Assembly: GCA_017619445.1 (NCBI GenBank)
Contig: JAFZSI010000010.1
Coordinates: 62,001 to 126,000 of the forward strand
DNA length: 64,000 nucleotides
Source of the DNA: Prevotella sp.
GTDB lineage: Bacteria > Bacteroidota > Bacteroidia > Bacteroidales > Bacteroidaceae
Reading direction: 5' to 3'
Shown here: piece after piece, positions 3,880 to 59,266 of the stretch
How positions within the stretch are numbered: position 1 is the stretch's first letter
How the letters are laid out: every line of letters begins with the position of its first letter
Notes under the pieces: generated by a model
Database searches by the model: none
What the model saw: only the letters and a program-made list of their open reading frames with translations
Told to the model about the DNA's origin: nothing
Made by a program: the position numbers and the translations under genes

Positions 3880-3985
3880 ATATTTACAACTTGACAATTT
3901 AACAATTTACATTTTATCACCCTCCCCTTGGGAGGGCTGGGGTGGGTTCCAATACCAAACACCCAACATCCAACACCCAATAACC
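3880..3985. repeat. composite intergenic tract
   Basis: Three modules in order: TTGACAATTTAACAATTTAC (AAATTG module), CCCTCCCCTTGGGAGGG (GC-rich palindromic module) and ACACCCAACATCCAACACCC (GTGTTGG module read in reverse). The same modules recur in the same relative order elsewhere (26440-26565, 47790-47920, 48324-48420). Confidence 0.8.
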
Positions 3986-3992
3986 AACACCC

Positions 3993-5150
3993 ATGTCATT
4001 TACAGAATTTCTTGTAAGCAACTTCCACGAGTTTCTCACCTACACGGGCTTTGTCAACGCCACGTGGGGAAACCTCATCATGATAGGTGTGGGAGCCATT
4101 TTCATCTGGCTCGCCATCAAAAAAGACTTCGAGCCGTTGCTGCTCGTACCCATCGGCCTTGGCATCATCCTCGGCAACATTCCCTTCCGTGCCGACGCGG
4201 GGCTCGAGATTGGCCTGTATGAGGACAACTCCGTGCTCAACATCTTCTACCAGGGCGTGCGCCAGGGGTGGTATCCCCCACTCGTCTTCCTCGGCATCGG
4301 AGCCATGACCGACTTCTCGGCACTCATTGCCAACCCCAAACTCGTGCTCATCGGAGCCGCAGCCCAGTTCGGCATCTTCGGTGCCTACATGACCGCCCTG
4401 GCACTCGGCTTTGAGCCCAACCAGGCGGCAGGCATCGCCATCATCGGCGGAGCAGACGGCCCCACGGCCATCTTCCTCTCGTCGAAGACAGCACCCAACC
4501 TCATGGGAGCCATCGCCGTATGCGCCTACAGCTACATGGCCCTGGTGCCCGTCATACAGCCCGTGCTCATGCGCCTGCTCACCACCAAGAAAGAGCGCAT
4601 CATACGCATGAAGCCCGTGCGCCACGTCAGCCAGACAGAACGCGTGCTGTTCCCCATCATCGGCCTGCTGCTCACCACGTTCATCGTGCCCTCGGGCCTG
4701 CCTCTGCTCGGTATGCTGTTCTTCGGCAACCTGCTCAAAGAGTCGGGCAAGACCACCCGTCTGGCCAAGACCGCCGGTGCAGCCCTCAACGACATTGTCG
4801 TCATGCTGCTCGGACTCACCGTGGGATGCTCCACACAAGCCAGCGAGTTCCTCACCATGAACACCATCTTCATCTTCTTCATCGGTGCCTGCGCCTTCGT
4901 CGTAGCCTCCGCCAGCGGCATTCTGTTCGTCAAACTGATGAACCTCTTCCTGCCGCGCGACAAGAAAATCAACCCGCTCATCGGTAACGCCGGTGTGAGT
5001 GCCGTGCCCATGAGCGCGCGCATCTCCAACAACCTCGGACTCGAGTACGACCGCCACAACTTCCTCCTCATGCACGCCATGGGTCCCAACGTGGCCGGTG
5101 TCATCGGCTCGGCCGTCGCTGCAGGTGCCCTCCTCGGATTCCTCAGCTAA
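3993..5150 (+). CDS. Na+-translocating decarboxylase beta subunit
   Basis: 385 residues of very hydrophobic protein with about 9-11 membrane helices. Family motifs include NPKLVLIGAAAQFGIFGAY (114-132) and GGADGPTAIF (152-161). By homology with OadB, the aspartate in this second motif (Asp155 here) lies in the Na+/carboxybiotin site. The subunit decarboxylates carboxybiotin and exports Na+. It ends the gamma/biotin/beta gene group and is followed by a strong hairpin. It could be called mmdB, oadB or gcdB; the substrate depends on the alpha subunit, which is not in this window. I favour methylmalonyl-CoA decarboxylase by context. Confidence 0.9.
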   Translation: MSFTEFLVSNFHEFLTYTGFVNATWGNLIMIGVGAIFIWLAIKKDFEPLLLVPIGLGIILGNIPFRADAGLEIGLYEDNSVLNIFYQGVRQGWYPPLVFLGIGAMTDFSALIANPKLVLIGAAAQFGIFGAYMTALALGFEPNQAAGIAIIGGADGPTAIFLSSKTAPNLMGAIAVCAYSYMALVPVIQPVLMRLLTTKKERIIRMKPVRHVSQTERVLFPIIGLLLTTFIVPSGLPLLGMLFFGNLLKESGKTTRLAKTAGAALNDIVVMLLGLTVGCSTQASEFLTMNTIFIFFIGACAFVVASASGILFVKLMNLFLPRDKKINPLIGNAGVSAVPMSARISNNLGLEYDRHNFLLMHAMGPNVAGVIGSAVAAGALLGFLS

Positions 5151-5257: not shown

Positions 5258-5320
5258 ATTGTTGACATAAACCATTGCTTTGTTTAAAGAGCGTTACGCC
5301 TCGTTATCATAACGCTACGA

Positions 5321-5485
5321 GTTACGCTCAAATTTTCTAGAAAATCTGAGCGTAAAGTTTAGCGTTGTTTCCGGCGGGCTGAACATGGTAATGACAAAGT
5401 GGTGAGTTACATCCAAATTTTCTAGAAAATCTGAGCGTAAAGTTTAGCGTTGTTTCCGGCGGGCTGAATGTGCCGGAAACAACGC
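5321..5485. repeat. TTTTCTAGAAAA palindrome element, two copies (locus A)
   Basis: Two identical 54-bp direct repeats (5330-5383 and 5415-5468) lie exactly 85 bp apart, each starting with the palindrome AAATTTTCTAGAAAAT. The first is a nested palindrome: TTACGCTCA on the left mirrors TGAGCGTAA on the right. The second copy runs into a perfect 14-bp hairpin (GCGTTGTTTCCGGC at 5447-5460 with its complement at 5472-5485) that could end leftward transcription. The element fills most of the gap between the beta-subunit gene and the next gene. Confidence 0.85.
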
Positions 5486-5521
5486 CAAGAGTTATTTCTT
5501 CAATATCTCAAACAAGTGGCC

Positions 5522-6175
5522 CTAAATCTTGTTTATATCCACATAGCCGTGCATGACGGCGTAGATGGTGAGGGCGGGCACGGACTTCAGGTGCAGCTTC
5601 TCCATGATGTTGCGGCGGTGGGTGATGACAGTGGCCAGGCCAATGTTGAGCCGTTGGGCTATTTCCTTGTTGAGGAGTCCCTGTGCGATGAGGGTGAGCA
5701 CCTCCACCTCGCGGTTAGTGAGGGGTGGTTGCTCCCCCCGCCCCTCAGAGGTAGCCCTCCCTGTTCCCCGGAGGGGGGTGTTTGAAAGATGGCGCAGCCT
5801 GTTATGGGTATGGGCTCCCGCGGGCAGGTTCTTGCCGTTGCGGTGGGCGTGCTGCTCGAGCATGAGGATGTTGCGCACAAGGATTTTCTCGGGCACGTTT
5901 ACACAAAGGCTGTGGAACTCGCTGAGTTGTGTGCCTGGGTCGAGCGACAGCGTAAGGACAATGGTCTTGCGCCGCCGCTCTTGGAAGAAGGCACGGTTTT
6001 GGAGTACTAAGTTCATGGCCACGAAATAGTGGTAGTACGAGTCGGCATTGTTGGCCTCCAGTTCGGCCAGGGAGCCGAAAAGATGGACCGTGGCAATGGG
6101 CATTACTTGCTGAAGGATGCCCTTCAGTCCCATCGCCGACAAGGTGTTTGGGTCTATAATTGCTATTTTGAACAT
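5522..6175 (-). CDS. LuxR-type regulator with a degenerate receiver domain
   Basis: 217 residues from MFKIAIIDPN. The open frame extends 27 codons further upstream, but that part is encoded by repeat tract, so I take the ATG at 6175. The N-terminal half resembles a response-regulator receiver (IIDPN acidic pocket, then VLTLS). Where the phospho-acceptor Asp should be, near residues 51-55, the sequence is FVAMN, so phosphorylation looks impossible. The C-terminal domain (about 150-215; LTNREVEVLTLIAQG, NKEIAQRLNI) is a clear LuxR/GerE helix-turn-helix. Between them lies a stretch of about 20 residues (NTPLRGTGRATSEGRGEQPP) encoded by GC-rich repeat-like DNA at 5724-5786. The target is unknown; no sensor kinase is adjacent. 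Confidence 0.8.
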   Translation of the reverse strand: MFKIAIIDPNTLSAMGLKGILQQVMPIATVHLFGSLAELEANNADSYYHYFVAMNLVLQNRAFFQERRRKTIVLTLSLDPGTQLSEFHSLCVNVPEKILVRNILMLEQHAHRNGKNLPAGAHTHNRLRHLSNTPLRGTGRATSEGRGEQPPLTNREVEVLTLIAQGLLNKEIAQRLNIGLATVITHRRNIMEKLHLKSVPALTIYAVMHGYVDINKI

Positions 6176-6184
6176 ACTTTTTGA

Positions 6185-6300
6185 ATTGAAGCCCCCGCGC
6201 CCCCCGGAAGGGGGAAGAGAGGAGAGAGGAGAGAGGAGAGAGAAATGAGGAAGCATTTGTCCGCTAACTCCCGATAACTCCCGATAACTCCTTTTCTCTG
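6185..6300. repeat. composite intergenic tract
   Basis: In order: a GC-rich palindromic piece (CGCCCCCCGGAAGGGGG), a GAGAGAGGA purine run, AAATGAGGAAG and a CATTTGTCCGCTAACTCCCG module with two further TAACTCC repeats. Module order agrees with the other composite tracts when orientation is allowed for. The tract fills the gap between the LuxR-type and GH3 genes. Confidence 0.75.
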
Positions 6301-10499: not shown

Positions 10500-10624
10500 G
10501 AGTTTGGGAGTTCTGAGGAGTTTTCCTCCTTCTCTCCTTCCCTCCTTTACTCCTTTACTCCTTTACTCCTTTTACTCCTTTTTTCGCTTTGCTCAAGGAA
10601 CTTCTCCTTTTACTCCTTTACTAC
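10500..10624. repeat. pyrimidine-rich CTCCTTTACTCC tract
   Basis: Many imperfect CTCCTTTACT repeats. Within it, 10575-10608 is a 34-nt sequence whose exact reverse complement is at 17302-17335. The tract runs up to the stop codon of the serine hydrolase gene. Confidence 0.8.
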
Positions 10625-11765: not shown

Positions 11766-11805
11766 TTATTAACATTTTTTGGTGCAAGGAAGGTTCTTGA
11801 GTGCA

Positions 11806-11889
11806 GAGTTACGGGCATAAAGCATAGAGTTATGGGCGTAAAGCATAGAGTTATGGGCGTAAAGCATAGAGTTACGGGCGTAAATGCAT
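11806..11889. repeat. four tandem 21-bp units (locus B)
   Basis: Four perfect-register 21-bp units (starts 11806, 11827, 11848, 11869), each of the form GAGTTAYGGGC followed by RTAAAGCATA; the last unit is slightly degenerate. They match the 21-bp units of loci D and F, but no TTTTCTAGAAAA palindrome is present here. They lie between the divergent promoters of the GH3 operon and the hybrid regulator. Confidence 0.85.
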
Positions 11890-17284: not shown

Positions 17285-17410
17285 TAGGTGTAAAGAAGTA
17301 AAGGAGAAGTTCCTTGAGCAAAGCGAAAAAAGGAGTAAAGGAGTTATCGGAAGTTATCGGAAGTTAACGGGAGTTAGCGGACAAAGGAGCATATCTCGTA
17401 CCTACGTACC
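17285..17410. repeat. composite intergenic tract
   Basis: It contains the 34-nt segment 17302-17335 (exact inverse of 10575-10608), then GGAGTTATCGGAAGTTATCG, GGGAGTTAGCGGACAAAGG and a CGTACCTACGTACC stretch. It fills the maf-kdsC gap. Confidence 0.8.
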
Positions 17411-19451: not shown

Positions 19452-19597
19452 CAAAGTGCAGGTTTATGGATGAATTTTCTAGAGAATTTAAACGTAAAGC
19501 ATAGGGTTGCAAAAACCATGTTTAGGACGGCTGTTGCAAAGTGCAGGTTTACGAATGAATTTTCTAGAAAATTTAAACGTAAAGCATAGGGTTGCAA
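19452..19597. repeat. TTTTCTAGAAAA palindrome element, two copies (locus C)
   Basis: Two 61-bp direct repeats (19452-19512 and 19537-19597) differ at three bases and lie exactly 85 bp apart, as at locus A. Each runs CAAAGTGCAGGTTTAYG, a spacer, AATTTTCTAGARAATT, then AAACGTAAAGCATAGGGTTG. The TTTACG before and CGTAAA after the palindrome make it a nested inverted repeat. The rest of the 19255-19795 gap holds only the two flanking promoters. Confidence 0.85.
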
Positions 19598-19795: not shown

Positions 19796-20767
19796 ATGAC
19801 AACAAAGATTGAGATTATCACGCGCAGCGACAAGCTGCCGACAATGTCGGAGCGCAACTTCTTCCACAGTCCCGAGCTGTTCAGGATTGTGGAGCAGACA
19901 CGCGGGCAGACGCCCTACATGGTGGTTGCGATGCGCGAGGGGCACGTGGTGGCTCATCTGTTGGCTGTGCTTCGGCGGCGTGGCTCGCTCCTTCCGCCTT
20001 ACCTGTTCACCCAAGGGCGCATCTACGGTGAGGGAGAGTATGACGAGGGTGAGTCTCGGGAGGAGCTGTTCAGCCTGATGCTGCAGGCCATCAGCCGCAA
20101 GCTGCACCGCCGTCTTTGCTTCTATATTGAGTTCAGCGACCTGAGCACCAAAATGTTCGGCTACCGCCATCTGCGCCGTCAGGGATTCTTTCCCATTCAT
20201 TGGATGGAGATTCACAACTCGCTGCACTCCATGCCGCCCGAGGACCGCCTGAACGAGAAAATGAAGGAGCGCATACAACACGCGTATGAGCAAGGCGTGG
20301 TGACGAAACGAGTGGCCCACTACGACGACTTCCGCGACTTCTACAAAATGCTGCGCAGGTTTTTCAGGATGAAGATACGGCGCTATCTGCCGCCCGAACG
20401 GCAGTTCTACGAGCTGAACAAGAGCAGCAACTGCCGCCTTTATATCACGCAGTACAAAGGCAAGGCCATCGGAAGCTGTGCCTGTGTTTACACGGGCGGC
20501 AATGCTTACTTGTGGTACCTGGCATCGCGGCGCAAGAGCCATCCCCTGCTCCACCCCGAGACGCTCACGGTGTGGAACGCTATGAAGGAGGCACACGCTG
20601 AGGGTATGCGCCACTTCTACTTCATGGACGTGGGACTGCCCTACCGCCGCAACCCACAGCGCGAGTTCATCCTGAGCTTCGGGGGCAAGCCCGTGGGCAC
20701 CTACCGCTGGTTCAACTTCACCTTTGGATGGCTGAACAAAATCGTGTCGTGGTTTTATCGGGAATGA
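19796..20767 (+). CDS. FemAB/GNAT-like acyl- or aminoacyl-transferase
   Basis: 323 residues without signal peptide or membrane helix. The sequence has the look of Acetyltransf_6/FemAB-like proteins: an N-terminal domain (FFHSPELFRIVEQT, MVVAMREGHVVAHLLAV) and a second acetyltransferase-like half (about 160-300) with CRLYITQYKGKAIGSCACVY and the aromatic NAYLWYLASRR, where such enzymes bind the acyl donor. It ends in an aromatic tail. Family members add amino acids or acyl groups to peptidoglycan, lipopolysaccharide or lipids; no substrate can be assigned. It is a lone rightward gene; the next gene is separated by a long low-complexity tract. Confidence 0.65.
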   Translation: MTTKIEIITRSDKLPTMSERNFFHSPELFRIVEQTRGQTPYMVVAMREGHVVAHLLAVLRRRGSLLPPYLFTQGRIYGEGEYDEGESREELFSLMLQAISRKLHRRLCFYIEFSDLSTKMFGYRHLRRQGFFPIHWMEIHNSLHSMPPEDRLNEKMKERIQHAYEQGVVTKRVAHYDDFRDFYKMLRRFFRMKIRRYLPPERQFYELNKSSNCRLYITQYKGKAIGSCACVYTGGNAYLWYLASRRKSHPLLHPETLTVWNAMKEAHAEGMRHFYFMDVGLPYRRNPQREFILSFGGKPVGTYRWFNFTFGWLNKIVSWFYRE

Positions 20768-20975
20768 GGAATGGGAAATGAGAAATGAGGAATGAGGAAT
20801 GAGGAATGAGAAATGAGAAATGAGGAATGAGAAATGAGGAATGGACTTTACTCCTTCCCTCCTTTACTCCTTTACTCCTTTTCTCCTTTACTCCTTTACT
20901 CCTTTTCTCCCTTTTAAATTGTAAATTGTCAAATTGTCAAATTGTAAATGACTCTACTCCTTCCCTCCTTCCCTT
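20768..20975. repeat. composite tract: GAGGAAT repeats, CTCCTTTACT repeats, AAATTG repeats
   Basis: About ten GAGGAAT/GAGAAAT heptamers are followed by CTCCTTTACTCC repeats, then AAATTGTAAATTGTC with TCAAATTG repeats, then more CTCC. This is the longest low-complexity tract in the window. It fills the gap before the TonB-dependent receptor gene. Confidence 0.8.
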
Positions 20976-26439: not shown

Positions 26440-26565
26440 TTTGGAAAGAGGAGAGAGAAAATTGACAATTGACTATTGATAATTCTTCATTTGTCCGCTA
26501 ACTCCCGCTAACTCCATATAACTCCCAAACACCCAACACCTAACACCTAACACCAATTACAAGCA
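26440..26565. repeat. composite intergenic tract, full module set
   Basis: In plus orientation: GAAAGAGGAGAGAGAAAATT (purine run), AATTGACAATTG, CATTTGTCCGCTAACTCCCG with further TAACTCC, then CACCCAACACCTAACACC. This copy shows four modules in one piece. Confidence 0.8.
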
Positions 26566-35013: not shown

Positions 35014-35072
35014 TCTTCATTCGTACTCCTTCTGTCTCCCCAACTCCTTCCCTACTTTACTCCTGTTCTCCT

Positions 35073-35561
35073 TTACTCCTTCTCTCCTTCCTTTTTGGCT
35101 TTCGGTTTTCTGCCGCGTTTTGCCGGTTTCTTTTTGTCGGCCGGTTGAGGAATCATGTGCTGTAACTTGTAATCGCGGGGAGTCACGCCATTCAGTCTGT
35201 AGAAAGCCGCATAGAACGACTGGCGGTTGGAGAAACCCACCATAGCACTAATGTCCTCCATGTTCAAATCGTTGTAACGGCGGTCAGTGAGCAAAGTCAT
35301 GGCCTCCTCAATGCGATACTTGTTAATGAGCATCGTATAGTTCATGTGAAACCTCACATTCACCACGGCAGAGATGTAACGGGTGTTAGTACCCAGGTCT
35401 TCAGCTAAGCGTTTTGCAGAATAGTCTTTGTCCTTGTATTTCTTCTGAATAAGAATAATGTCAAGGATTTTCTCTTTCAGCTCGTCCATGAGCGTTGGAT
35501 TTACAAGACCCCTATAAGCAGCCTCCTTTTCCTTTTTTTCAGTAATATTATATTTCGCCAT
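35073..35561 (-). CDS. AraC-type helix-turn-helix regulator with a basic tail
   Basis: 162 residues. It is a stand-alone AraC DNA-binding domain (about 30-135): YSAKRLAEDLGTNTRYIS for the first helix-turn-helix and MEDISAMVGFSNRQSFYAAF for the second. No sensing domain is present, as in several Bacteroidales regulators related to HTCS output domains. The tail KKPAKRGRKPKAKKEGEKE contains RGRKP, an AT-hook-like motif. The last residues are encoded by a purine-rich tract. Target unknown. Confidence 0.8.
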   Translation of the reverse strand: MAKYNITEKKEKEAAYRGLVNPTLMDELKEKILDIILIQKKYKDKDYSAKRLAEDLGTNTRYISAVVNVRFHMNYTMLINKYRIEEAMTLLTDRRYNDLNMEDISAMVGFSNRQSFYAAFYRLNGVTPRDYKLQHMIPQPADKKKPAKRGRKPKAKKEGEKE

Positions 35562-35822
35562 ACCTGAAATGATAATAAAATATGTTTTTCATTTGCAATG
35601 CAAATATAATATTTACGCCTTAAAAAATCAAGCAACCAACCAATTATTTAACGGTTTTTTACCGTTTTCCATTTCTTTAACATCTTTTTAGGGTAACAGC
35701 ACGGAAAACCATAGGCATACTCACCTTGTATCGATGACTTTTTATTGAGCATCCATGGAAAAATGTGCGTTTTTTTCAATGCAATGCAGCTTTATGTCAT
35801 CACAGCACAGCGAGTTACAGTT

Positions 35823-35935
35823 GCAAAGCATAGGTTTATGAACGCAAAGTGTAGGTTTACGAACGCAAAGTGTAGGTTTACGAACGCAAAGTGTAGGTTT
35901 ACGATGAAATTTTCTAGAAAATCTGAACGTAAAGT
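35823..35935. repeat. 21-bp tandem units plus TTTTCTAGAAAA palindrome (locus D)
   Basis: Four 21-bp units (starts 35823, 35844, 35865, 35886), each GCAAAGTGTAGG followed by TTTACGAAC, run straight into the palindrome AAATTTTCTAGAAAAT (35907-35922) and CTGAACGTAAAG. This locus shows the whole element in one piece. The remaining 35562-36131 gap holds only the promoter below. Confidence 0.88.
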
Positions 35936-36075
35936 GCGCAGTTGTATTTGTGGCAAGAAACGGGATGAAAACAAAGTGTGAAGATAGAAAAGCCATCTGT
36001 AGAAAAAATGCCTGTATTGTAAACGTTTGCGTTTTTTTTGCGTTGAAAAGCAGGCAATAATAGCAAAAAATACAG

Positions 36076-36083
36076 TAAATTTG
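36076..36083 (+). promoter_or_regulatory. -7 box of the pectate lyase operon
   Basis: TAAATTTG matches TAnnTTTG, 48 nt upstream of the ATG at 36132. Confidence 0.55.
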
Positions 36084-36131
36084 CAGCACGATAAAAATAG
36101 AAACTAAAAAACTATACAAACCTATAAAAAC

Positions 36132-36527
36132 ATGACAAAGAAAATGCTTTTGGTCCTCTGCCTGGCAGCACTCACATCGACAACGGTGTGGGGCGACAAC
36201 ACGCAGACCGTGACCATCAACGGTGCTACCGTTGAGAAAAACGTGACACGTATCACCTTTGAAGGCGACTACATCGTGCTCCACTTTGCCGACGGCTCCA
36301 GTGAGCAGTCAGACGACTTCGCTTCGGTGAAAATAGAATTCAGCGTGCCATCGGCCGTTCGCACACTCAACCGCGACAACAGCCAGCAGGCTGTGCTGGT
36401 GTTCGACATGACGGGAAAACTGGTGGCTACCTACCCCACCGCAAATGCCAACCAGCTCGACGCGCTGCAAAAAGGTGCTTATATTATTAAGAAAGGTAAG
36501 CAAACCGTGAAACTCATCAAAAACTAA
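36132..36527 (+). CDS. small secreted protein with sorting-signal-like C-terminus
   Basis: 131 residues with signal peptide (about 1-21, ending VWGD). A short beta-rich mature domain of unknown function is followed by a C-terminal region (about 85-131; VLVFDMTGKLVATYP, KGAYIIKKGKQTVKLIK). That region follows the pattern of type IX secretion sorting domains: a 'xDxxGKxV' strand, then 'GxYIxK' and a basic end. It lies 15 nt upstream of the pectate lyase and is surely cotranscribed. It could be a small surface accessory of pectin breakdown; no motif shows what it binds. Confidence 0.65.
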   Translation: MTKKMLLVLCLAALTSTTVWGDNTQTVTINGATVEKNVTRITFEGDYIVLHFADGSSEQSDDFASVKIEFSVPSAVRTLNRDNSQQAVLVFDMTGKLVATYPTANANQLDALQKGAYIIKKGKQTVKLIKN

Positions 36528-41362: not shown

Positions 41363-41459
41363 CGGTTTTAACATTTCGCTGTAATCACGCTGTGCTTGGT
41401 TTTGGCGCGCTAACTTATAGCTTTATGAAAGCAAAACTAAGCACGGTAATAACAAAGTG

Positions 41460-41545
41460 AGGCTTTACGGTGAAATTCTCTAGAAAATTCATGCGTAAAG
41501 CCTAACGTTAGAAAACAAGCGCCGCACTTTGTATTTGCGGCGCTT
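41460..41545. repeat. palindrome element with nested inverted repeat and hairpin (locus E)
   Basis: AGGCTTTACG (41460-41469) and CGTAAAGCCT (41494-41503) are perfect inverted arms around the core AATTCTCTAGAAAATT (41474-41489). Just behind is a 10-bp hairpin (AAGCGCCGCA at 41517-41526 with TGCGGCGCTT at 41536-41545), which can serve as the terminator of the leftward uxaC gene. Confidence 0.82.
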
Positions 41546-44967: not shown

Positions 44968-45014
44968 AATGATTTTGGTTTAGGGTTATTGGTTATTGTT
45001 TATTGTTTATTGGT

Positions 45015-45902
45015 TTACACTATGATGCGTGTTTTATGGTAATTCTCACGGAACTCGCTGGGCGAGCATCCTTTCTTGCGCTTGAATATCCGATTGAAAT
45101 TGCTCAGGTTGTTGAATCCACAGGCAAAACTGATTTCAGAAATGCTGCGGGCTGTATCAACCAACATGCGGGCGGCATAGCCCAACCGCATGTCAATAAT
45201 ATAGTCGGTAAGATTGCGGCCCGTGTGCAACTTGAAGAAACGGCTGAACGCGCTGGGACTCATACCGGCAATGCTTGCCAGAGTGGCCAGCCTCATCTCG
45301 TCCATATAGTTTTTGCTGATATAGTTTTTCACTTTCAGAATGCGTCGACTGTCATCCTCAACGGCGATTTTCGCGTAGCTGCTGGTGGCGAGCGTGCGTG
45401 CTCCACTGCAACGCGACAGTTCGTAGAGAATGCTCAGAAACTGCTGCACAGCATAAAAACCGTCCTTGATGGTGCTCAGTGTGTCGAGCATTCCATAGAC
45501 TTTCATTATGGCAGACAACGGGAAACAGAGTCCCTTGCGGGCTTCGTTCAGCATCTTGCGCATACTGAAAAACGGATTGCGGCCAAACAGGCTGTCTTCG
45601 CCCAATGGGAAATCAAACTGAACGGTAATCTCACGAATATCCTCGCTTTTGCAATCGTGTTGCTCCCATACGTGCTCAAGCTCAGGGCTTGTAATGAGCA
45701 CCAGGTCGTATTCACCAATCACCTCGCTCGAATCGCCCACAACACGCCTTACACCCGAGGCATGCTCAACAAAATTGAGCTCAAACACCTCGTGGTTGTG
45801 AATGGGATAGGTGAATTCTTTCTTATGCCGGTCGGCAATATAAAGAACATCCTTTCCCATCAGCGGAGTAATCTCGTGAATCACACGTCTCTCTTCTGCC
45901 AT
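45015..45902 (-). CDS. AraC-family regulator with cupin-like sensing domain
   Basis: 295 residues. The N-terminal cupin-like domain (about 20-130; PIHNHEVFELNFVEHASG) can bind a small ligand. The C-terminal AraC DNA-binding domain (about 190-290) has MRLATLASIAGMSPSAFSRFF and ISEISFACGFNNLSNFNRIF, the two helix-turn-helix units. The ligand is not known. It precedes rubrerythrin in the same direction, but this adjacency alone does not show control. Confidence 0.87.
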   Translation of the reverse strand: MAEERRVIHEITPLMGKDVLYIADRHKKEFTYPIHNHEVFELNFVEHASGVRRVVGDSSEVIGEYDLVLITSPELEHVWEQHDCKSEDIREITVQFDFPLGEDSLFGRNPFFSMRKMLNEARKGLCFPLSAIMKVYGMLDTLSTIKDGFYAVQQFLSILYELSRCSGARTLATSSYAKIAVEDDSRRILKVKNYISKNYMDEMRLATLASIAGMSPSAFSRFFKLHTGRNLTDYIIDMRLGYAARMLVDTARSISEISFACGFNNLSNFNRIFKRKKGCSPSEFRENYHKTRIIV

Positions 45903-45964: not shown

Positions 45965-46045
45965 ATTTCTTCCGCTCCTTTTCTCCTTTACTCCTTTACT
46001 CCTTTTCTCCTTTTCTCCTTTACTCCTTTTCTCCTTTACTCACGC
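45965..46045. repeat. CTCCTTTACTCC pyrimidine tract
   Basis: About twelve imperfect CTCCTTTACT/CTCCTTTTCT units between the AraC gene and dapA. Confidence 0.8.
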
Positions 46046-46986: not shown

Positions 46987-47028
46987 ATAAAACACCGTTT
47001 TTTTGACAGCCTGGTCAACTCTTAACAC

Positions 47029-47778
47029 CTAACACCCAACACCCAACTCATATCTCACCTCTTCGAGAAAAAGCGCATGGGCTGGCATACTCTCCCCTGC
47101 CGCCATGCGGTTTTTGCCCTCCACTACAGCGCGGAACTCATCTAGGCTCATGCGATGACGACCGACCTCCACCAATGTGCCCACAACGGCGCGCACCATG
47201 TTGCGCAGAAAACGGTTAGCCGTGATGCGGAAACACCACTGCGTGGGTGACTGCTGAATCCAACGCGCCTCGCTCACACGGCAGAGCGTCGTCTTCACGT
47301 CAGTATGAGCCTTGCAGAAAGCGCCGAAGTCATCGTAGGTACAAAGAATGCGCCCCGCCTCATTCATCAGTTCAAAGTCCAGGTCATAGTGCATCTGGCA
47401 CGAAGTGTTGCACACAAATGGATTCTTGCGTGTGTGTATATAATAATGATACGTGCGCGAGGTGGCACTGAACCGTGCGTGCATATCCTGTGCCACGGCC
47501 ACCACACGACTTACCGCAATGTCGCGCGGCAGCAGGCGGTTCAACCTGTAGGCCAACTGCTGACAATCAACTGCTGCCTCTGTGTCCCAATGAGCCGCCA
47601 TCATGCGCGCATGCACGCCCGCATCCGTGCGCCCAGCACCGACCACCTGCACGTCCTCGCGCAACAGCGTTGAAAGGGCACGCTCAAGCTCCGCCTGCAC
47701 AGAATTGCCGTTGGGTTGCACCTGCCAGCCATGGTAGCGCGAACCGTCGTAACTGAAAAAAACAAAATAACGCTGCAT
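47029..47778 (-). CDS. truA: tRNA pseudouridine synthase A
   Basis: 249 residues. The catalytic Asp52 lies in VVGAGRTDAGVHA; FRITANRFLRNMVRAVVG is the family's C-terminal motif. It forms pseudouridine at positions 38-40 of tRNA anticodon stems. The last five residues (LGVGC) are encoded by a GTGTTGG-type tract that runs on past the stop codon to 47004. The LytTR gene lies upstream across a composite tract. Confidence 0.93.
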   Translation of the reverse strand: MQRYFVFFSYDGSRYHGWQVQPNGNSVQAELERALSTLLREDVQVVGAGRTDAGVHARMMAAHWDTEAAVDCQQLAYRLNRLLPRDIAVSRVVAVAQDMHARFSATSRTYHYYIHTRKNPFVCNTSCQMHYDLDFELMNEAGRILCTYDDFGAFCKAHTDVKTTLCRVSEARWIQQSPTQWCFRITANRFLRNMVRAVVGTLVEVGRHRMSLDEFRAVVEGKNRMAAGESMPAHALFLEEVRYELGVGC

Positions 47779-47789
47779 ATTTATTTGGA

Positions 47790-47920
47790 TGTTGGGTTAT
47801 TGGTCGTTTAGTCGTTTGGGTGATGGATGTTGGATGTTGGGTACTTGAAATTGTAAATTGTAAATTGTAAATTGTCAAATTGTAAATTCCCTCTCTCCTC
47901 TTCTCCTTTCTCAAATAGTC
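47790..47920. repeat. composite intergenic tract between truA and the LytTR gene
   Basis: In order: GTTGGGTTATTGG / GATGTTGGATGTTGGG, then GAAATTGTAAATTG repeats, then CCCTCTCTCCTCTTCTCC. The same three modules in the same order recur within the LytTR gene at 48324-48420. Confidence 0.82.
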
Positions 47921-48896
47921 ACAGAGCCTTGATGGCGTCTTTGACTTGCTGCATATTGCTGCGCGACACGGGAAGCGACTCATTGCAATGTCTTATATGG
48001 AGTTGCATGGTGCCCGAACGTGAAACAACGTGTTCCACCTGCTGCAGGTTGACAAGGAAGGCGCGATGGCAGCGTACAATGGTAGGGAAGCCGCTCAGCT
48101 GGTCTTCCATCTGCTTGGTGGTGGCGCGCAACATATCTGAGTGTGGCTGTTCGTCTTGCAAATGAATTACTTTCACATAGTTTCCGACAGACTCTATATA
48201 TAAAAGGTTTTTTACCTGAATGCTAATCGACTCACTGGTTGTGCCCGTAAGAGTGACAGACAGGGGTATTGACGTGTCGTTGAACGTTTGCTGCGGAATC
48301 CCCGTTAATGCAGAAGGCTCGTTTGGGTGTTGGGGGTTGGGTGTTAGGTGTTGGTTATTGGACAAATGAGAAATTGTAAATTGTAAATTTCCTCTCTCCT
48401 CTCTCCTCTCTCCTTTTCTCAACTGTTCGTTCATCAGCCGTGTTTCTTCCAGCTCAGCTGCAAGATACTTGCTGCGAAACTTGAAACGCCAGTACAAGCC
48501 AATAGCGAATGAGCAGAACGCAATGATGACAAGCGTTTCCAAGAAATTGCTCCACGAAAGAATGTTGGAAGCCACTTGCAGCCCCTCATGGTGGCTCAGC
48601 ACAAAGTGGCGGTAAAGGCATATCATCAGTGCCACAAGCGGCGTATTGATGAATTGAAACCACAGGTTGCGCCGTATGACATAGTTGATACCCCTGTCGG
48701 TGGCCCGAGGCATCCTGACAATATATTTCATCACCAAATCAGTCAGCATACACACAGTTAATCCCAACAAAAAAATAATCAGCAGGTGCACGTAGGCCGT
48801 TGCCTGCCACGCTTCAAGACCGAAAGGCTTGAACACCGCCAATGCCAACGCCACAAAGGCTGAGCTAACCGCACGAACAATAAGTATATGTTTCAC
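47919..48896 (-). CDS. membrane-bound LytTR transcription regulator
   Basis: 325 residues from the GTG at 48896. The longer ATG frame (48956) overlaps the -7 box and would start upstream of the expected transcript. Four transmembrane helices (about 5-140) are followed by a short amphipathic stretch and a C-terminal LytTR DNA-binding domain (about 225-322; NLLYIESVGNYVKVIH, RCHRAFLVNL). The linker (about 159-191; KGERREERGNLQFTISH...) is encoded by a composite repeat tract. It is divergent from the outer-membrane barrel gene at 49186, its probable target. Confidence 0.78.
   Translation of the reverse strand: MKHILIVRAVSSAFVALALAVFKPFGLEAWQATAYVHLLIIFLLGLTVCMLTDLVMKYIVRMPRATDRGINYVIRRNLWFQFINTPLVALMICLYRHFVLSHHEGLQVASNILSWSNFLETLVIIAFCSFAIGLYWRFKFRSKYLAAELEETRLMNEQLRKGERREERGNLQFTISHLSNNQHLTPNPQHPNEPSALTGIPQQTFNDTSIPLSVTLTGTTSESISIQVKNLLYIESVGNYVKVIHLQDEQPHSDMLRATTKQMEDQLSGFPTIVRCHRAFLVNLQQVEHVVSRSGTMQLHIRHCNESLPVSRSNMQQVKDAIKAL
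48324..48420. repeat. composite tract inside the LytTR gene, in frame
   Basis: The modules GTGTTGGGGGTTGGGTGTTA, GAAATTGTAAATTG and CCTCTCTCCTCTCTCC occur in the same order as in the intergenic tract at 47790-47920. They encode the linker between the membrane and LytTR domains. Confidence 0.82.
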
Positions 48897-52272: not shown

Positions 52273-52881
52273 ATGGAGCTTGATGAATTGAAAGCCAGTT
52301 GGAACGCACTTGACAAGCGTCTGGCAGAAAGTGAAATAGTGAACCTGCGCATGGTGAAAGAGATGATTGCCCAGAAAACCCGGTCAGCCTTCGACCACAT
52401 CTGGCGGTTCAACATTTTCAATCTCATAGTGTGTATTCTGATTATTTGCATCGTCTTCCCGTATGTCTATACGAATACGCCCATCATGACCACTTCGTTC
52501 GTCATTGTTGAGGCGACGATGATTATTGGACTCATACCGCAGATATGGAAACTCACCTTGCTCTCTAATTTCGATTTAGAGAAAAAGAAATGCAACCAGC
52601 TCAGCGGCCTCGTACTCAAGTATAAGAAAGTCTGTAACCATGAGAAGACTTGGGGGATAGCCCTGGTCTGCTTGGCCATGGGAGCCTTCTACATCTCAGA
52701 ACTGGGTTTCAACAAGAATGCCGGCTATGTGCTGGGGCCAAGACTCGTGCTGCCGTTGGTTCTCACATTACTTACGTTCGCCATGGGCTATTTGTTTGCT
52801 ATATGGCAACGCAGACGACATGCCCAGCAAATGGAGGAAATAGAGCAAGGATTGGAAGAACTTAGAGAATTTGAGAATTGA
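52273..52881 (+). CDS. membrane protein, possible anti-sigma partner
   Basis: 202 residues. An N-terminal cytoplasmic helical part (MELDELKASWNALDKRL) is followed by four hydrophobic helices (about 50-72, 77-95, 132-150, 158-180) and a charged C-terminus. Such proteins commonly follow ECF sigma genes in Bacteroidota and may bind the sigma factor through the N-terminal part; there is no proof here. The last residues and stop codon run into a GAGAATTGAGAGTTGAG tract. Confidence 0.55.
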   Translation: MELDELKASWNALDKRLAESEIVNLRMVKEMIAQKTRSAFDHIWRFNIFNLIVCILIICIVFPYVYTNTPIMTTSFVIVEATMIIGLIPQIWKLTLLSNFDLEKKKCNQLSGLVLKYKKVCNHEKTWGIALVCLAMGAFYISELGFNKNAGYVLGPRLVLPLVLTLLTFAMGYLFAIWQRRRHAQQMEEIEQGLEELREFEN

Positions 52882-52949
52882 GAGTTGAGAGTTGAGAATT
52901 GGGAATTGAGAATTGACAAATCCCTACTCCCCTACTAAAAAAGAAGAAA

Positions 52950-58937: not shown

Positions 58938-58970
58938 AATTCTAAAATGCTAAATATTCGTTTCGTTGTG

Positions 58971-58978
58971 CAAAGGTA
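58971..58978 (-). promoter_or_regulatory. -7 box of the unknown protein gene
   Basis: It reads TACCTTTG on the minus strand, 34 nt upstream of the ATG. Confidence 0.55.
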
Positions 58979-59012
58979 CGGCATTTTTTCCACTTATCAA
59001 TCTTTTTATATC

Positions 59013-59157
59013 AAATTTTCTAGAAAATGTGACAACAAAGCATCGCTTTACAAACGCAAAGTGTAGGTTTACGAACACAAAGTGCAGGTTTACAAACGCA
59101 AAGTGCAGGTTTACGAACGTAAAGCAATGGTTTACTACTGAATTTTCTAGAAAATTT
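59013..59157. repeat. 21-bp tandem units between two TTTTCTAGAAAA palindromes (locus F)
   Basis: Palindromes ATTTTCTAGAAAAT at 59015-59028 and 59142-59155, 127 bp apart. Between them are five 21-bp-register units, mostly CAAAGTGYAGG followed by TTTACRAACG. The spacing equals the 85 bp of loci A and C plus two 21-bp units. It fills most of the 58938-59294 gap. Confidence 0.88.
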
Positions 59158-59266
59158 GGCTCCAACGCTGTGGTGTTGTGTTGGCCGTGGGCGTTTTTAA
59201 GTGTGTAGATTGCTGAAAAAGCGTAAAAAAACAACATTAATAATAGGTAGATTCAAATAATATTGC

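Follow-up and report, generated by a model that had tools for sequence, protein, structure and literature searches.

A phased palindromic array in Prevotella as a candidate binding site of an HU-HIG-type HU-family protein

Introduction

The intergenic stretch at positions 59013–59157 of a 64,000-nucleotide window of DNA from a rumen Prevotella (the window being the whole stretch analysed) carries two copies of a short palindrome joined by units in a 21-bp register. Similar arrangements recur elsewhere in the window, always between the longest open reading frames, which raises the question of what kind of element this is, how widely it is distributed, and which protein might bind it. No strand is assigned to the element or to its relatives described below.

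Results

Architecture of the element in the window

The core of the element, TTTTCTAGAAAA, is a perfect CTAG-centred palindrome with no loop, present in six exact copies in the window (starting at 5333, 5418, 19560, 35910, 59016, and 59143; mean expectation 0.00 in 100 dinucleotide shuffles). Two further cores differ by one mismatch, TTTTCTAGAGAA at 19475 and TTCTCTAGAAAA at 41476, so that the eight cores at five intergenic loci listed in the preliminary description are all found at their correct coordinates. In the element under study, core 59016–59027 is followed by units in a 21-bp register and then by core 59143–59154, the core-to-core distance of 127 bp being equal to 43 + 21 × 4. The two-core locus at 5311–5494 contains cores 5333–5344 and 5418–5429, 85 bp apart, the first of them within a 34-bp palindrome at 5322–5355 (TTACGCTCAnATTTTCTAGAAAATnTGAGCGTAA), which is the nested inverted repeat that had been proposed. 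Another two-core locus, at 19452–19597, has cores 19475–19486 (one mismatch) and 19560–19571, also 85 bp apart; the spacings of 85, 85, and 127 bp given earlier are thus exact. Four 21-bp units precede a single core (35910–35921) at 35823–35935, a lone one-mismatch core (41476–41487) with arms CTTTACG/CGTAAAG lies at 41459–41505, and four 21-bp units without a core occupy 11805–11889. Tandem Repeats Finder recovers the 21-bp arrays at the three loci where they had been noticed (11805–11889, 4.0 copies; 35823–35904, 3.9; 59047–59124, 3.7).

All six loci fall between the longest open reading frames; shorter mechanical frames that overlap three of them (35742–36284, 180 aa with a GTG start; 58950–59237, 95 aa; 5468–5785, 105 aa) are taken as chance. 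A family search with ten proteins encoded beside the window arrays gave, where it assigned any family, ordinary ones: oxaloacetate decarboxylase beta subunit, LuxR-type and AraC-type regulators, a beta-lactamase-fold protein, nitroreductase, GNAT, UxaC, and a nucleotidyl transferase.

The window holds other tandem repeats as well. An 8-bp unit (CTCCTTTA/CTTTACTC) forms four arrays (10522–10581, 20846–20910, 35043–35089, and 45975–46041) that represent a second interspersed microsatellite family, unrelated to the palindrome element. Arrays of 7-bp units (CCAACAC, GGAATGA, AACACCT, GGTTATT, AACACCC, AAATTGT, TCCTCTC, and GAGAATT) are found at 3949–3993, 20761–20843, 26528–26554, 44984–45015, 47024–47047, 47848–47888, 48390–48414, and 52865–52916, and are slippage-prone and possibly phase-variable. 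Related 10-bp units (CCGATAACTC, AGTTATCGGA, and CCGCTAACTC), each about one helical turn long, make up three arrays on both strands (6261–6291, 17342–17381, and 26495–26526).

Copy number and distribution

The window's own genome (G000; 2.87 Mb in 81 contigs, 85% complete) contains 129 exact cores, with none for the reversed control, and 177 matches to the wider form AATTNTCTAGANAATT; the copies are therefore not few. Since the 50 exact cores with listed positions make up 41 loci, the total of 129 corresponds to about a hundred loci. Core positions in G000 were sampled, with 64 distinct cores used for placement and spacing and 39 loci for unit parsing and between-locus comparison. The suspected intergenic bias holds: 61 of the 64 cores lie outside open reading frames of at least 100 aa (ATG starts), as do 40 of 42 in RUG107 and 14 of 16 in UBA3776, against a coding share of 76–81% in the DNA sampled around them. 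Gaps carrying G000 arrays are convergent (15), divergent (14), or tandem (9), and promoter-side gaps are not preferred; with no preferred gene orientation and with ordinary neighbours, regulation of neighbouring genes array by array is not proposed.

An exact 14-mer was found in 9 of 398 Prevotella genomes and a wider 16-mer core in 48 of 249 (G000 included in both), the control being 0 in every genome of the latter sample, which is treated as one draw for the core, VapE, and HU-HIG counts. An order-wide sample comprised 247 genomes; of the 246 other than G000, 5 have single copies, fewer than the 7 matched by the reversed control. Among the genomes sampled, only the genus Prevotella carries the element. 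Many Prevotella genomes hold exactly two copies, which, where positions were listed, usually lie 65 bp apart. A scan of contigs, which may omit the window's own genome, yielded 18 loci, of which seven from Prevotella or Prevotellaceae records were kept (L042–L047 and L051) and 11 lacking units were set aside as chance. On inspection by eye, the single copies in two genomes, G060 and G335, likewise resemble chance matches. Carriage by phages was considered because two viral contigs matched the pattern; by eye, one (L067) is the stretch of the other (L066) on the opposite strand, without units, and they were treated as chance.

Helical register, units, and curvature

Cores and units have one common register of about two helical turns. 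Core-to-core distances in G000 equal 43 + 21n within 1 bp in all 25 sampled pairs, 24 of them exactly (85 bp in 11 pairs, 84 in one, 106 in seven, 127 in three, 148 in two, and 190 in one), and a further pair, known from coordinates alone, is 107 bp apart. In RUG107, 12 of 13 pairs follow the same rule (43 bp in five, 85 in four, 106 in two, 127 in one, and the exception, 116, in one), and the 28 pairs from other species are spaced by 65 bp (23 pairs), 66, 21 (two pairs), 115, and 116; the sampled pairs as a whole are not all independent, as they include tandem copies inside one locus (three in L034, two in L013). The quantisation by 85 + 21n that had been predicted is thus borne out and widened to 43 + 21n. 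All distances except 115 and 116 are near multiples of 21.2 bp, that is, two turns of 10.6 bp, with 65 off by 1.4 bp and 66 by 2.4 bp. Units of 22 bp stand beside the core in three other species (L126, L120, and L124), and 65 equals 43 + 22. The peaks of the half-flank profile put unit centres at 21.5, 42.5, and 63.5 bp from that of the core, from which it follows that the core occupies one place of the unit register and that neighbouring cores are therefore 43 + 21n apart, or 21 bp if directly adjacent.

The half-site consensus is AGAAAATTTga-CGTAAAgC...GCtTTG in G000 (128 half-flanks, both halves of 64 cores) and AGAAAATTT-a-cgTAtCGcCGtGAGtTAtTTT in RUG107 and UBA3776 (116 half-flanks); their comparison shows that the core and the near arm CGTA are common, while the unit words are unlike. 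The units are dyads such as AAAGYRnnRCTTT, in which AA/TT half-sites alternate in orientation every 10.5 bp, and the A+T content in G000 likewise fits a period of 10.5 bp best. Among the 350 half-sites of 175 units parsed by a simple rule at 39 loci, the commonest, AAAGCA, AAAGTG, and AAACCT, account for 167, and unlike partners are favoured (AAAC with AAAG in 58 units, 39 expected). The half-flank profile fades outward without fixed ends. Predicted intrinsic bending amounts to 82 degrees per 126 bp, compared with 47 in shuffles, and 27 of 61 loci exceed the 95th percentile of random window stretches, in a prediction based on wedge angles.

Positions shared between species

Comparison of 37 core loci of G000, 27 of RUG107, and 14 of UBA3776 identified nine cross-species pairs in which a neighbouring protein is 72–94% identical (five G000–RUG107, three G000–UBA3776, and one RUG107–UBA3776); six further pairs at 26–51% identity were left uncounted. 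The chance expectation, a rough one that assumes about 2000 intergenic gaps, is 0.5 shared pairs for G000–RUG107 and 0.26 for G000–UBA3776. Both flanking sides align in three pairs (the window gap at 19475 with L045, L010 with L046, and L017 with L051), the others aligning mainly on one side. Compared with the window gap, its RUG107 counterpart L045 has two cores separated by 106 instead of 85 bp, with other unit words, and elsewhere among the shared positions the species have different numbers of cores. The core therefore stays in place while the number and words of the units change.

Link to a clade of HU-HIG proteins

The preliminary description had suggested looking for a linked nucleoid protein, and the search led to a clade of HU-HIG proteins. 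These proteins, reportedly described by Burroughs et al. in 2017, are HU-family DNA-binding proteins; the clade adjacent to cores matches Pfam PF18291, and its profile weakly matches solved HU structures (best 5eka, E 3e-5). HU-type proteins are generally taken to recognise DNA shape more than sequence. We know of no described DNA binding site for HU-HIG proteins, and none appeared among the listed titles and abstract openings of open-licence papers on HU-HIG and HU-like/VirE proteins. The whole family was rejected as the partner of the core, being too general: it is present in all 14 genomes searched, and its model also matches 9 of 14 control genomes, so that ordinary HU is included in it. 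Only one clade follows the core.

A profile of this clade, seeded mostly with core-adjacent proteins, among them ten from core loci, and applied at 150 bits or more, a threshold placed at a gap in the match list (157 to 138 bits), matches 43 of 249 Prevotella genomes. Cores are present in 32 of these 43 genomes, compared with 16 of the 206 lacking the clade (Fisher p = 2.5e-19, kinship of genomes ignored). VapE (PF08800), a primase-helicase considered below, is a weaker predictor (cores in 44 of 159 genomes with it and in 4 of 90 without it; p 3e-6, kinship ignored), and among VapE-bearing genomes the clade still separates those with cores (30 of 41) from the rest (14 of 118; p 5e-13). All eight genomes with at least 10 cores carry the clade, and it co-occurs with cores in the VapE-free genomes G000 and G134. 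Because scoring covered no more than 13 candidates in any genome, the matches per genome are lower bounds; G000, the genome with the most cores, also has the most clade matches (at least 7), and RUG107 (G209) has at least 4.

The link is positional as well as statistical. Among the 30 best HU-HIG loci, a core is present in 22, in 21 of them within 600 bp upstream of the ATG, and among the 20 that did not contribute seeds it is present in 13. Counted per gene, over 75 loci (80 minus three without a profile match and two duplicates), a core lies no more than 600 bp upstream of 24 of 42 clade genes and of 3 of 33 other HU-HIG genes; with the seeds removed, the figures are 14 of 31 and 3 of 33 (p 0.0015). 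In four loci (L196, L197, L208, and L070), the core ends 36–37 bp before the ATG, just ahead of a box resembling TAnnTTTG, which we take to be the Bacteroidota -7 consensus, and in two others (L200 and L201) it is found 53 and 59 bp before the ATG. A protein bound at the core beside such a box could block transcription. The orthologous HU-HIG genes of G000 (L017), RUG107 (L051), and UBA3776 (L148) have a common 5′ footprint, TAACTTTGCGCTCAGATTYTCTAGARAATTC, that includes the core, and form one group with a support of 98 in a quick tree, half of whose inner branches are weak. In this tree of 57 HU-HIG rows, 11 of which had been found via cores, the core-adjacent label changes 6 times, compared with a mean of 14 in shuffles (none of 500 shuffles reaching so few). 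A second group (L132, L056, and L134) is also located near cores, once downstream. The core thus follows the HU-HIG clade across genomes and sits in its 5′ region.

Some observations speak against the link. The 16-mer core is missing from eleven of the 43 genomes with the clade (in G050, one of the eleven, L202 has a 12-mer core at 0.7 kb upstream), 16 genomes with one to nine cores each have no clade member, several of these genomes being incomplete, and a core was seen beside only one of 7 clade genes in G000 and one of 4 in G209. The site could also belong to the VapE cassette and be bound by another protein.

In one genome, G272, TTTTCTAGAAAA and TTCTCTAGAGAA-type cores form pairs with a 65-bp spacing at four loci (L068–L071), and GGTGGAAGTG-type repeats are also present at three of these; L070 adjoins HU-HIG and L071 adjoins VapE.

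The VapE cassette

In eight of twenty loci read around cores of other Prevotella, an adjacent gene encodes a BT4734-like_N and VapE primase-helicase, with the core (seven pairs, one single) on its 5′ side; one further locus holds a VapE remnant. HU-HIG lies on the other side of the core from VapE in five loci (L109, L111, L116, L122, and L127). In L114 it is found downstream of VapE, and L118 has HU-HIG but no VapE. The two genes are divergent and 1–2 kb apart in a minimum of 19 loci, spread over 17 genomes. Among 32 pair loci with a repeat test (26 distinct, six fetched twice), repeats with a period of about 11 bp are found on both sides in 24 (20 of 26 distinct) and are mutually inverted in 22 (19 distinct), inverted meaning that the two sides have more reverse-complemented than direct 7-mers in common. 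This basic-looking module is helically phased, dyad-symmetric, and approximately 400–500 bp long, and its 11-bp-period flanks possibly represent the iterons of an origin used by VapE. Only the pair modules of other species show direct repeats next to a gene for replication: G000, 85% complete, has no PF08800 match, and G209 has two (best E 3.8e-7).

The words of the inverted 11-bp-period flanks around 65-bp core pairs (L108, L109, L113, L115, L116, L121, L127, and others) are species-specific, for example CCTACAT, GACAT, and CTCGCAT.

Discussion

With moderate confidence, and as judged from sequence comparison, we propose that the element is a binding site for an HU-family protein of HU-HIG type, a predicted operator and perhaps an origin, which in the window's lineage would have spread to about a hundred loci as phased arrays. 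HU-HIG is the likely binder of the palindrome because related species often have the core in front of an HU-HIG gene. What looks like the basic form of the site, present in many Prevotella, has two CTAG-centred palindromes at a distance of 65 bp, usually with 11-bp direct repeats on either side that are inverted to each other, and is positioned 5′ of an HU-HIG gene, in a region often common to a divergent gene for a VapE/BT4734-like primase-helicase. There it would most likely serve as an operator for autoregulation, and perhaps also as the origin from which the cassette replicates. A clade member with its 5′ core has been kept in the window's species and in two relatives, and copies of the site would meanwhile have spread to many loci between genes, where 21-bp dyad units, two turns long, share the register of the palindrome. 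Proteins of the HU family bend DNA as dimers, and the array, in which AA/TT half-sites recur every 10.5 bp in step with a palindrome, suits a row of dimers on one face. HU-HIG dimers may thus bind core and units along one face of curved DNA, yielding a bent or wrapped nucleoprotein; at its own gene the protein would repress itself, and at dispersed loci it would form curved nucleoprotein patches, so that an autoregulatory and an architectural role are both suggested.

A bolder interpretation, which we offer tentatively and regard as rather doubtful, is that an HU-family protein with its own sequence-specific, two-turn-phased code has made its operator the basis of a nucleoid scaffold that extends over the genome. 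In it the palindrome would stay fixed, and within each species the unit words would change in concert at different loci, as though tracking changes in the expanding HU-HIG paralogs. Such a system would parallel, in bacteria, a satellite DNA that coevolves with the protein binding it.

Other explanations place the function of the element elsewhere. The 65-bp pair with its inverted 11-bp repeats might be the iteron origin of a satellite-like VapE primase-helicase cassette, solo copies being remnants and the window arrays decayed or decoy origins. The position of the core 5′ of VapE, the inverted flanking repeats, and the divergent HU-HIG/VapE arrangement described above are all consistent with this explanation, and PMC7145576 describes iterons at origins as well as replication initiators of satellites that have the activities of a helicase and a primase. 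We nevertheless consider it unlikely as the main account, since G000, even at 85% completeness, combines 177 matches to the wider core with no PF08800 match, VapE predicts cores less well than HU-HIG does, and flanking inverted 11-bp repeats were not noticed at G000 arrays on unsystematic reading. For the basic module, an origin is compatible with an operator bound by HU-HIG, and both may hold. It is very unlikely that the arrays are operators of another regulator with the HU-HIG gene merely one target or a passenger; the presence of cores in the 5′ region of HU-HIG genes themselves, and of the same 5′ core at their cassette partner VapE, would fit such a regulator, but of the two families followed genus-wide (the HU-HIG clade and PF08800) HU-HIG fits better, and it accompanies cores in VapE-free G000 and G134.

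A mobile repeat of MITE or REP type, spread by a transposase and having no function of its own, would explain numerous, lineage-specific, palindromic intergenic copies. For the RAYT-type transposase that the preliminary description proposed to seek, a genome profile search of G000 gave a single partial Y1_Tnp match, under the family cut-off. RUG107 (G209) and UBA3776 (G040) have partial matches over the cut-off (31–34 bits), the best Y1_Tnp proteins belong to a genome without cores (G010), and nearly full-length matches in three core-rich genomes (G236, G095, and G056, with 27–50 cores each) mean that RAYTs are not missing from all carriers and favour mobility. Against it stand the longest between-locus matches, which are only 66–76% identical (the 25 longest of 971, from 39 sampled G000 loci), the persistence of the quantised register across species with unlike unit words, and the nine cross-species pairs with a common neighbour gene, three of them matching on both sides; nor were defined ends or target duplications seen by eye, with no empty-site strain for comparison. 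We consider a mobile repeat of this kind quite unlikely. When eight Y1_Tnp loci were read, a core was present in the stretch at two (L180 in G095 and L181 in G056), in both cases about 0.7–1.4 kb downstream of a Y1_Tnp gene of 199 aa; these belong to two species and possibly represent one ancestral arrangement. An RNA-level element (a hairpin, attenuator, or structured RNA) is the least probable of the explanations, to the point of being hardly credible. The three two-core window loci do fold better than shuffles (z -5.2, -5.5, and -3.5), because the cores pair with one another, but the unit array with one core (z 0.26) and the coreless array (z -1.1) do not, half-sites prefer unlike over self-complementary partners (11 like pairs compared with 15.6 expected), and convergent and divergent gaps are used alike; no Rfam match was found in the window.

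Binding by an HU-HIG protein remains the explanation that we prefer, and it provides a concrete candidate site, consisting of a palindrome whose register has been measured, together with a candidate partner gene in many species and, at some promoters, a location like that of an operator. Should the link prove correct, an HU-family protein would have a testable sequence-specific site, and a self-regulatory site would have multiplied into some hundred phased arrays, with species-specific unit sequences at shared positions.

Among the matches listed in open-licence literature on Prevotella repeats, REP, MITE, and BT4734/VapE (titles and abstract openings), the element was not found described, although several known systems resemble it. 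REP-type palindromes are imperfect, with a loop and a GTAG foot. Like the element, REP/BIME with RAYT are short intergenic palindromes in many copies; the element differs in its helically quantised spacing, in the lack of a GTAG foot in the sequences read, and in the lack of an over-cut-off RAYT in G000. Of the two possibilities left open at the outset, a REP-like family or a phased protein-binding array, the former is not supported, and the latter is supported by the common two-turn register, the quantised spacing, and the genus-wide HU-family link. The SaPI origin reportedly contains two iteron sets. As in the phage-satellite and iteron-plasmid origins covered by PMC7145576, inverted sets of short direct repeats stand here beside a gene of primase-helicase type; unlike them, the module has a central pair of CTAG palindromes and often an HU-family gene opposite, and its role as an origin is that of a candidate.

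Porphyromonas gingivalis belongs, as does Prevotella, to the Bacteroidales. The closest described repeat found is its MITE BrickBuilt (PMC4596501), which has 23-bp minisatellite direct repeats, a leader and a tail, inverted-repeat ends, and 19 copies. Both BrickBuilt and the element are intergenic and lineage-specific, with a variable number of tandem units about two helical turns long. Compared with BrickBuilt as described there, the element is distinguished by a central palindrome, 21-bp dyad units in its register (22 bp in three species), 129 exact cores, and the link to HU-HIG, and no leader or tail with terminal inverted repeats was seen in it. One BrickBuilt copy, BrickBuilt_14, adjoins a gene for an HU-type DNA-binding protein (PF00216) in Table 1 of the same paper, which raises the question of whether BrickBuilt, too, has an HU-family partner.
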